DNA from: Halichondria panicea
Taxonomy: Eukaryota > Porifera > Demospongiae > Suberitida > Halichondriidae
Direction of reading: 5' to 3'
NCBI RefSeq assembly: GCF_963675165.1
Contig: NC_087387.1
Coordinates: 4,552,990-4,616,989 of the forward strand
DNA length: 64,000 bases
The notes under the pieces are model-generated. The model saw nothing but the letters and a program-made list of their open reading frames with translations, was not told the DNA's origin and ran no database searches. Shown piece after piece: positions 17,678 through 23,992 of this stretch (position 1 is its first letter; each line of letters opens with the position of its first letter). The translations under genes were made by a program, and so were the position numbers.

Positions 17678-18383
17678 ATGTTAACAAGTCCTCAAGCTAT
17701 TCTCTATCGCAAGACAGCTAATCTGCTAACAGGGGATGCCTACAGAGCCCCTCCCATACTACTGAGCATGGGAACATGTATGGTGTTCCTCGTGATCATC
17801 GGGGGATATGTTCAAGTCCATCTCACTATTCCATGTATGTATTCACTGATGTATATAGATCTATATATAGCTATATGTGTTAAACCCTGGACATATGTCG
17901 ATCTATTGCATGTTACGTAAAATACTATCTATAGTATTTTACGTAACAGTAATTTATAAACGTATATTGTAGGGCCTATGTGAATACCTATATGTAAAAC
18001 CACGAAAGAAAATTCATATGTGATCATTTTTTTACTTGAATTTAAATCCTCCACACATGCATGCAGGGCTGATCGCGAATATCACACTGCTTGGACTAGC
18101 TCTGATTGGAAGCGTACTACCAACTAGCATTGTCTTCCTGTCCCAGGCTGACGAAGCTGACACTCTGAAGTTTACTCTAGACTACCTACTTAGGAATCAT
18201 CGAAGTGTTCATCAGCACCTTCATCACCGTGATGAGATATCTTGCAAAAAGACTGTCCCTCAGAGTAACGCTCTTCATAATCATGCTTCAAACAAGATTC
18301 CGATGGGCAATACTATTTTTCAGCATGATGTTCTTAGTGATACTATCTGGAGACGTGGAACTAAATCCCGGCCCTCTAGGTAG
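17678..18383 (+). CDS. Putative multi-span membrane protein frame leading into the 2A gene
   Basis: Exon 17678-17834 (ATG; donor CCAT/GTATGT) joins in phase 1 to an exon starting at 18067 (acceptor TGCAG). It gives two or three hydrophobic spans: PPILLSMGTCMVFLVIIGG, then WLIANITLLGLALIGSVLP, then SIVFL. The frame stays open to a TAG at 18381-18383. After LDYLL at about 18190, however, it turns His- and Asn-rich and looks like a shadow of the overlapping +1 frame. That +1 frame reads GIIEVFISTFITVMRYLAK and continues into the 2A leader. Either this is a separate short gene whose 3' end overlaps the next gene's first exon, or the two form one protein joined by a +1 frameshift, an unseen splice or a sequence error. 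I do not recognise the family. Confidence 0.4.
17911..17948. repeat. Perfect 16-bp-arm palindrome in the intron
   Basis: TGTTACGTAAAATACT at 17911-17926 is exactly inverted at 17933-17948 around a 6-base loop. It lies in the intron between the two membrane-frame exons. Confidence 0.75.
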
Positions 18384-21300: not shown

Positions 21301-23992
21301 TCAGTATGTGGTTGTCCCGTCATTCCTACAGCCTGTGGATAGTGAGCACAGAGCACCACCAGGGCTTCAGCCGCAAGAAAAGTTAGTCCTATATTATATG
21401 CAGTAGAGCTATAGCCTTCGTAAATTTGGATTGCAGAGTATATATAATTATATTAAGAAATGCATTATTATAAATATTTTTCATTCAGCTCACTTGCCTC
21501 TTCTGTGAATCCAATCGAAGTGTTTGAACATGCTATCGATAACTCTAAAGAAGAAATTCGCCATACTAAAGACCCATTATCAATTTACATCACAGACATT
21601 GGAGGACAACACGAGTTTCAAGAATTAATACCAGCACTTGTTAGTGGTCCTTCGGTGTTCCTCATTGTAGTACCAGCACATTGGGGTCTCAGTAATATCT
21701 TCCCTGTCACCGACCTAAATCGAGATGAAACTATAAGCAGTCAAGAGTCACAAAGTGATTATCAATGTAACGGTATGACTCTTAAAGAATACGTTTTGCA
21801 ATCTATTGCAACAATAATGTGCGTTAGAAATCGAGAAATGGCTAGCGTTTGTCCAAAGCTATTGTTTGTACTTACTTTCAAGGATCAAATAAAAGTTGAT
21901 GAATTAGCAGCAGTGGACAGAGAACTTCGAGACGCTGTGTGTTTAACTGAGGCCTACAACTTAAATATGATCGAGTTTGCAAGTCAAGACTTTTTATGTC
22001 ACTCCATCAACAACCTCTCTGAAGATGACACTGATGTGAAACAAATACAGCGAACGATTGAACGTATTGCTCGACGAAATGAAGGGTATCATGTACAGAC
22101 TCCTTACTCGTGGCAATTTTTTGGAATAACCCTTCGGTCGCTCCCTGATAACATTATTGATTATAACACATGCTTAGAAATCGGGGCTAGATGTGGTATT
22201 TCTAGCAGGGAGGATTTGGACTCTGCTCTCATTCATTTTCATGAACAAACAGGAGTGTTGCGATACTACCACAATGTTCCAGAGCTCCAGGAAATAATTT
22301 TTCTGAATCCCCAAGTACTTTTCGACAAGGTATCAACACTTTTTACTAACCTCTTTACGTTTCATCAAGTTGGCAAGCATGAGAGTGACAGATTTTGCAG
22401 AAAAGGTATATTTTCTTTGAAGACACTCGAAAAAATCATGGCTGTGTCCCCTGTTGATTTCTTCACAGCTACACGATTAGTGGCTTTCTTGAAGCACCAT
22501 CACATCATTGCACCACTGAGAGATAGTGAATCCACCTTCTTCTTGCCTTGTATTCTAGCACGTGCCAATTTAGTGGCCACTCCTCCGAGTCGGTCTATCG
22601 TTGAGCCTCTACTGATGTCATTTAAGAATGGGTACACTCCACGAGGTTTGTTTGGATTCATGATAACGCATCTTCTCGAAGTGGACACCACTTCTGATTT
22701 TAACATGGAGATTGCAAACAATTCGGACCAGATATATCGAAATCAAATTTCACTCATTATCCATCCGTTTGGTGATATCGTCAAATTTAGTCTCCATGCT
22801 TCTTACATTCGCATTGACATTACACAATTACTACTCAAGCGTACTGTTCCGATCAATTGTATCTGCTGTCATGTGAAGAATCGAGTGATACGCATTTTAG
22901 AACAGATACGTCTTCAGTTTCACTACAACATTGATACCAATGAAGTACTGGCTTTCATTTGTCCTCACTTGGACAAAAATGAGCATGCAGCATTTGTTAA
23001 ATCGTTAAAAAATGAACCAGTGGCATTGCAGTGCTCACTTCTAAACCAGCCTCAGGATCTCCCATCCGGTTGGGATATGTGGTTTAGTGATAAGGTGCGT
23101 TTGTATAGTCTATATATGAAACCATTCAGTGTATACATGCAGCTACTTGTACTAGAAAAAGTGGTAGGTAGGTGCTGCAAGAGTCTTCTTCAATAAACGC
23201 CCGCAGTAGCGCGCGAAAATGTGGGGTTACGCCCCCTTTTGACGTCATTTCCGGTAGGTGCGGTGTCAATAATAAAGACATAGATAATTTGTATGCGCGT
23301 AATTTGTACTGCACTCTATTCTTGTCGAGCCTACTAAGTCTGCACTGCAGTGCTGCTTTTATCACAGCTTTTAAAGATACTACTGTACTAGATAGGTCTA
23401 TACAGCTATACTCAGCTAGCTAGTAATAAGTCTGAGTGACTTCCATCAACCAATGAGTGAGACACAAAGATAAATAATTTGTCCAAGGTCAGGGGGTGCT
23501 TGAGCACCCTAGCTCTGCTACCTGCTGAATCCGCCCCTGTGTGCATTGTCATAATTGTATCACAAAAGCCTGTACATGTACATGCAATAATTTTCGTGAT
23601 AACAATGTCAAAATTAATAATATGAACCTTGTCACAAAGTTTAAAAATTAATGTCTCCACTGCAGAGTCAAGATCTAACGCCAACTCTTTCGCAACTCAA
23701 ATTACTAACGTCCAAGAACAATGAGAAAGTTGAAATCATAAAAGTAGTGGCCTCAAAATGGGAGCATATTGGAGTTCTAATGGATTTCGATTCGACTGGT
23801 TCCTACTTGGATCTAGTCAAGAAAAGATGTGGCGAGAGAAGTCCCGAGGAGTGTTGCATTGCTCTGTTTCAGCACTGGCTGCGAGGCAATGGAAAACCAT
23901 CTTGTACGTGGGGAACTGTCACAGAGTTTTTGAAGGACATTGGCTATCCAACTCTTGCTCTGAATGTGAATGATATAGTCAGACAGTTTTAA
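18232..23992 (+). CDS. 2A-like leader / death-domain / Roc-COR protein
   Basis: Seven exons give about 1,109 residues: 18232-18379, 19544-19795, 19974-20249, 20464-20760, 20958-21381, 21489-23094, 23666-23992 (TAA). Residues 1-48 are a basic then hydrophobic leader (WAILFFSMMFLVILS) ending in GDVELNPGP, the 2A ribosome-skipping signature; skipping would cut between Gly47 and Pro48. Exons 2-4 (residues 50-324) each encode a death-fold domain with its own WxxL/I core. Residues 350-600 are a Roc-type GTPase: P-loop GTTRSGKTS at 356, switch II DIGGQ at 502-506, and a poor TFKD in place of NKxD. COR follows at roughly 680-860 (VLRYYHNVPELQEIIFLNP). The last exon is a further death domain (WEHIGVLMDFD...). 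The start was chosen as the first ATG in the hydrophobic frame. An innate-immunity or cell-death signalling role is inferred from domain content. Confidence 0.85.
18352..18375 (+). promoter_or_regulatory. 2A-like ribosome-skipping motif DVELNPGP
   Basis: Codons GAC GTG GAA CTA AAT CCC GGC CCT match the D(V/I)ExNPGP consensus, preceded by hydrophobic residues and Ser-Gly as in functional 2A sequences. In known 2A sequences no peptide bond forms between the last Gly and Pro. Sea urchin NLR-type proteins are known to carry N-terminal 2A sequences that double as signal sequences. The same arrangement is seen here, ahead of a different effector type. Confidence 0.85.
18484..18951. repeat. Very long (TG)n microsatellite in intron 1 of the 2A gene
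   Basis: About 275 bp of nearly pure TG from 18500, then about 170 bp of TG interrupted by TACG, TTTG and TATG. This is the largest simple repeat in the window, about 105 bp after the 2A exon. Poly(Cys-Val) and poly(Thr-His) frames across it are artefacts. Confidence 0.98.
23095..23665. other. Last intron of the 2A/Roc-COR gene with repeat remains
   Basis: It begins with GTGCGT and ends with CTCCACTGCAG. A CpG-richer patch lies at 23195-23270. A hAT-like terminus (GAATCCGCCCCTG) is at about 23527-23539, preceded by GGGGGTGCTTGAGCACCC. No exon is supported. Confidence 0.5.

Follow-up and report, generated by a model that had tools for sequence, protein, structure and literature searches.

Can a single gene place an immune-type receptor both in the cytosol and at a membrane by means of a ribosome-skipping 2A motif at the end of its first exon? 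The question is raised by a locus of the sponge Halichondria panicea, in a stretch of 64,000 nucleotides (C11:4552990-4616989, contig NC_087387.1; hereafter the window, with positions counted from its first letter) taken from a genome of 131.5 Mb in 39 contigs. The gene lies on the plus strand at window positions 18232-23992, and its seven exons join in an uninterrupted frame to a TAA stop at 23990-23992. We favor, with a probability of roughly 0.6, a reading in which this gene would encode an immune-type receptor whose first exon supplies a membrane leader ending in 2A, with dual cytosolic and membrane products, and in which the layout would be a recurring module.

The 2A exon and the protein it precedes

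Exon 1 (18232-18379, +) opens with the ATG at 18232 and encodes the leader MRYLAKRLSLRVTLFIIMLQTRFRWAILFFSMMFLVILSGDVELNPGP-L up to a phase-1 donor. Counted from that ATG, the leader is 48 residues long and ends in SGDVELNPGP, with the D[V/I]ExNPGP core in frame at residues 41-48, an N-terminal position in the protein. The core itself, DVELNPGP at 18352-18375 (+), has no second copy on either strand of the window and is one of 116 sites in the genome, and skipping would be expected between its G and P. Leucine-rich LVILSG precedes it, as in other leaders, and the leader is hydrophobic with a basic start, a Kyte-Doolittle peak of 1.98 over 19 residues and one predicted span.

The exon 1 donor (CTAG/GTAGGT, after 18379) and the pyrimidine-rich acceptor (TATAG, before 19544) join in phase 1, and the junction with exon 2 reads ...NPGP-L-V-R-V-S; use of an alternative donor after 18383 loses the frame. 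Every intron of the gene is GT-AG, and the exons end in phase 1 (exons 1-4), phase 2 (exon 5) and phase 0 (exon 6). Because exon 2 does not begin with an ATG, it requires an exon before it that ends in a phase-1 donor. A preliminary description of this locus had reported an intact SGDVELNPGP motif together with this splice, frame and domain order, and it was right on each: the motif, the hydrophobic leader, the phase-1 splice into a death-like exon and the open frame are all read directly, and the seven exons join to the stop. Intron 1 also contains a (TG)n array of about 460 bases (18484-18946).

Beyond the leader, the gene would encode an immune-type signaling protein with three death-like domains, a Roc-COR GTPase and a C-terminal death-like domain. 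The first half of the putative Roc is carried by exon 5 (20958-21381, +) and the second half, followed by COR, by exon 6 (21489-23094, +). COR-A was matched in exon 6 at 3.7e-11, above the curated Pfam cut-off, and COR stands after Roc, as in the ROCO family. When exons 5 and 6 were joined, with the C-terminal part of exon 6 omitted, Roc was matched at 1.2e-5 (26.0 bits versus a cut-off of 27.0), and we take the P-loop GTTRSGKTS in exon 5 and DIGGQ (DxGGQ) in exon 6, both read by eye, to be Roc motifs. Neither a kinase nor an LRR was matched in the Pfam search of the seven exons.

The death-like exons were brought together by an iterative search, in which exons 2 (19544-19795, +), 3 (19974-20249, +), 4 (20464-20760, +) and 7 (23666-23992, +, including the stop) all joined one profile that was seeded from the exon after the 2A leader of another locus (L030) and grew to 40 frames; the window exons took part in this growth, so the profile expectation values (E) are not independent, whereas the Pfam and fold matches are. 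Five of 20 members of this exon family matched Pfam Death at 0.01, the best at 5e-9. Within the window gene, exon 3 matched Pfam Death at E 0.0016, under Pfam's own cut-off, and exons 2, 4 and 7, searched singly against Pfam, gave no meaningful match. An AlphaFold model of exon 4 has six helices (predicted local distance difference test, pLDDT, 79.5), and its Foldseek comparison with the PDB returned death domains at all of ranks 1-9 (best E 0.72, template modeling score 0.63); models of exon 2 (best pLDDT 85.3, two of five above 60) matched death, death-effector and related folds (best E 0.18), with none of the matches for either exon under E 0.1. Exon 7 was assigned through the local profile only. 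A sequence search of the PDB gave no match for exon 3 and three for exon 6, at E 0.2 or worse, and an Rfam scan of the window gave nothing at the gathering threshold. The genome as a whole holds at least 150 Death-domain matches, versus none in 14 prokaryote controls.

In the mechanism that we propose, skipping of the Gly-Pro bond by most ribosomes would free the leader and yield a cytosolic receptor that begins with proline, and ribosomes that do not skip would produce a leader-fused receptor directed to the membrane, such that skipping efficiency would set the ratio of free to membrane-linked receptor. The leader-2A exon would behave as a module whose phase-1 donor fits the phase-1 death-fold exons of such genes. 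The preliminary description had sent the leader-fused form to the secretory pathway; this destination was too specific, as leaders across the genome carry, from their first Met, zero to three membrane-grade stretches and the fused form may be membrane-anchored.

Recurrence of 2A leaders across the genome

The 116 genomic sites comprise 91 with DVExNPGP and 25 with ATN replacing the Val codon. The reversed D[V/I]ExNPGP-type pattern was found nowhere in the whole genome, and the looser ExNPGP gave 148 sites versus 40 reversed. A dinucleotide model of the window predicts 0.0001 sites per 64 kb and 0.16 per genome, and a chance origin of the motif was rejected on the difference between this expectation and the 116 observed. 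We likewise rejected a 2A unique to the window gene, many of the genomic sites lying near NACHT or Roc/COR matches. The sequence around the motif, or more, was read for 48 sites; position alone was used to judge about 68 of the 116 loci, and downstream sequence was covered for 27 sites (L009-L034).

At 19 of these 27 sites a death-like exon follows on the same strand, no more than 350 bp away in 14 cases, with L017 counted among the 19 through a short partial match. Two further sites (L010, L011) precede NACHT genes, and at four (L012, L014, L016, L021) the motif leads into a frame with a PHD finger, of the non-LTR retrotransposon type. In the latter group, Pfam matched reverse transcriptase and endonuclease in L012 and L021 and PHD in L012, L016 and L021, and L014 was judged by eye to have the same frame as L012. 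The remaining two are L015, which was not assigned to a class, and a second L017 site, covered by 1.9 kb. Ankyrin repeats lie downstream of L028 and L031 and a sacsin-type domain downstream of L023, by position.

The recurrence of the layout and its genomic association are observed directly. At least 33 of the 116 sites have a listed NACHT or Roc/COR match on the same strand no more than 20 kb downstream, where 2000 genome shifts gave an expectation of 1.6 and a maximum of 15; the 33 is a lower bound, as not every NACHT, Roc/COR and Death match is in the lists. Counted by clusters, the figure is at least 14 of 38 (1.0 expected, maximum 6). This test omits one weak Roc/COR match (C5:5044538) and the targets on C22 and C28, and it uses a guessed length for C9.

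For 10 of the 116 sites, a COR-A match follows downstream at a distance of up to 17.3 kb. These sites form five clusters: the window (one site), C10:1.2 Mb (two), C6:0.72 Mb (one), C12:5.1 Mb (two) and C10:4.3 Mb (four), all but the window being assigned by place. The COR-A match at C10:1.2 Mb scored 34.4 bits and so falls short of the curated cut-off, 35.3. At C6:0.72 Mb (1.1e-12) and at C10:1.2 Mb (8.8e-15), COR is succeeded by a same-strand Death match, the order seen in the window gene. Separately, a large array at C14:500842-1625904 holds 41 2A leader sites, several with NACHT about 1.1-2.5 kb downstream.

A broader claim, that a cassette of leader, 2A and phase-1 donor has several times come to be placed before unrelated classes of death-fold receptor (NACHT, Roc-COR and ankyrin-linked) and controls the split between cytosol and membrane genome-wide, is one that we advance only tentatively and at somewhat less than even odds. 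A donor-like GT follows NPGP within 10 bases at 31 of the 48 sites read, and it is in phase 1 in 31 of 31. The count depends on the donor pattern (GT, A/G, any, G/T), and copies within a family are not independent; the donors of L045 and L046 are weak, and the first match at L039 lies 38 bases on and is in phase 2. Such a phase-1 donor could let the leader exon mount on phase-1 death-fold exons by exon shuffling.

Measured as the best 19-residue stretch near the motif, the Kyte-Doolittle mean reached 1.6 or more at 38 of 44 non-retrotransposon sites and at none of the four retrotransposon sites among the 48; the first Met of L012 does open one hydrophobic stretch, well upstream of its motif. 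A hydrophobic leader with a basic start, such as that of the window gene, would also suit an ordinary signal anchor with an inactive 2A, which would leave the receptor always membrane-bound. We regard this explanation as very improbable, for a plain anchor would not explain why D[V/I]ExNPGP is kept in leaders that differ elsewhere.

The number of spans bears on another explanation, in which skipping is near-complete and yields a small membrane protein, consisting of a leader with one to three spans, together with a cytosolic receptor, the fused form being a by-product. Three spans are predicted in the leaders of L010, L011, L045, L046 and L055 and two in that of L034, and the most active 2A sequences separate at 90-99% according to the available part of PMC4981915. 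The window leader, taken from the ATG at 18232, has a single span; a Pfam search of it found no domain, and it resembles other leaders only at the 2A end. We consider this reading, two working proteins per mRNA instead of dual targeting, unlikely.

Many 2A leaders share a second motif, WRARIGL[FY], at their N-terminal start (MGIxVELWRARIGLF, MDDxxTWRARIGLY), about 185-395 bases before the 2A. It occurs at 29 genomic sites and at none when reversed, and 24 of the 29 stand beside a 2A as judged by eye; examples are C11:3930703, C5:2732290 and C15:1028928. The leaders of L045 and L046 (C16:2.73-2.74 Mb) and L055 (C6:3.06 Mb) are long, with a signal-like start and their three predicted spans before the 2A, and the frame at C16:2.74 Mb is open for 927 residues.

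Origin of the leader and points against the proposed dual-product receptor

Several observations weigh against the dual-product, recurring-module reading. Similarity between the window leader and the others is limited to the part near the 2A: in the leader search, 18 of 19 non-self matches start at residue 24 or later and one at residue 12, with a best non-self E of 0.014. Six of the 44 non-retrotransposon leaders fall under the hydropathy threshold, and these include L037 and L038, which precede COR-A matches. Fifteen of the 20 death-like exon family members miss Pfam Death at 0.01. For 83 of the 116 sites the lists give no NACHT or Roc/COR match within 20 kb, and a comparison by eye showed no 2A site within 20 kb of any of the 17 listed NACHT places on C7; the leader is therefore far from universal. 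The available part of PMC4981915 also indicates that a 2A core alone is no guarantee of activity, since upstream context counts.

The closest relatives of the window gene add to these points. Its nearest paralogs lie on C4 (two copies, 43%) and C8 (37%), and no ExNPGP was found near any of the three in that part of their contigs; the sequence before the first death-like exon was read for one C4 copy (L035, 1.4 kb) and for the C8 copy (L036, 2.1 kb). The leader was therefore either gained in the window gene or lost in the paralogs. Inheritance of the leader with the Roc-COR clade is not supported, and the leader does not appear to be an old, conserved part of that clade.

A retrotransposon frame at the window locus was rejected, as the exons lack PHD, endonuclease and reverse transcriptase matches and the leader search recovered none of the four sampled retrotransposon sites. 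The motif might nonetheless be a relic of a retrotransposon or of an older leader, now inactive or bypassed by alternative first exons. In favor of such a relic, 2A-bearing retrotransposons are present in the genome (L012, L021), the nearest paralogs manage without 2A, and two open stretches just upstream of the 2A exon (17678-17834 and 18067-18191, +), both hydrophobic and bounded by plausible splice ends, fail to join the 2A frame in the present sequence. Set against this, the window motif and splice sites are intact, exon 2 lacks a start ATG of its own, and the 20 hits of the window leader at E of 10 or less include no sampled retrotransposon site. In the C14 array, where a leader search with a query that included the motif found 43 copies, the full motif is intact in 41. 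On balance, a relic seems decidedly unlikely.

The two upstream stretches may belong to a longer window leader. Nothing convincing as a homolog of either was found among the loci read, and the second, a possible extra leader sequence in a frame different from that of the 2A exon, returned only itself when searched across the whole genome.

Elsewhere in the window, two long open frames on the minus strand, 41583-44636 and 47819-50890 (1018 and 1024 residues), look like tandem duplicates, judged from their first residues; a Pfam search of both gave no match.

Relation to known systems

If many 2A leaders do stand near several classes of immune-type receptor in an early-branching animal, this would suggest a general route to dividing receptors between compartments. 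The split would depend on the ribosome, and disturbance of elongation or release, as by infection or translation inhibitors, could shift it; the leaders might then report the translation state. The system is readily testable, with short leaders, a clear point-mutant control and many natural variants within one genome.

Non-LTR retrotransposons reportedly carry 2A sequences of their own, as is said to have been described by Odon et al. in 2013. The core motif is identical to that of the receptor leaders, and in this genome L012 and L021 carry it with PHD, endonuclease and reverse transcriptase. They differ in that the motif leads directly into a PHD finger in one frame and hydropathy beside it is low, at four of four sampled sites. 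ROCO proteins with death domains are known as well, namely DAPK1 and related proteins. Like these, the window protein has Roc followed by COR and a C-terminal death-type domain, but it has three N-terminal death-like domains and a 2A leader in addition, with no kinase or LRR match in its seven exons.

Cellular uses of 2A, also termed StopGo, are described as rare in the available part of PMC12846837, which names the sea urchin case and also cites Rao et al. 2025 (Cell Rep) for a 2A scan across the proteomes of viruses and cells. The literature searched, which was partial in coverage and did not include that scan, held no recognized description of 2A in sponges or on Roc-COR, and we do not claim priority. 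The preliminary description knew of no 2A on a Roc-COR/death-domain protein; no earlier report was found here either, but the window gene is not a one-off, being one of 116 sites, 10 of which lie upstream of a COR-A match. The NLRs of another sponge, Dysidea avara (PMC12909245), resemble those of the present genome in an expansion of DEATH/NACHT genes and in that some are reported with membrane spans, and differ in that the main text of that paper, as far as available, does not contain the terms NPGP, signal peptide, Roc-COR or ribosom-.

The closest known system is that of the sea urchin, to which the preliminary description had aptly likened this locus. The part of PMC4981915 (Roulston et al. 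2016) available to us describes a 2A leader of an NLR protein (SpNLR2A) with about 80% skipping, lost on point mutation, and a fused form that enters the exocytic pathway; what was known before, within the sources seen, is thus such a leader and fused form in the NLR proteins of one sea urchin. As far as that account extends, the two systems share a hydrophobic leader at the N-terminus that ends in D[V/I]ExNPGP and precedes a death-fold immune receptor of a large family. The sea urchin proteins are described there as NACHT-LRR with leaders of 26 residues, whereas the window gene has Roc-COR with four death-like domains. The NACHT-LRR of SpNLR2A has its place taken by Roc-COR at the window, and NACHT follows 2A at other loci. 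The present genome further differs in that its 2A sites also include NACHT genes and loci with ankyrin repeats, in that its leaders are longer, with as many as three predicted spans, and in a common phase-1 exon layout.

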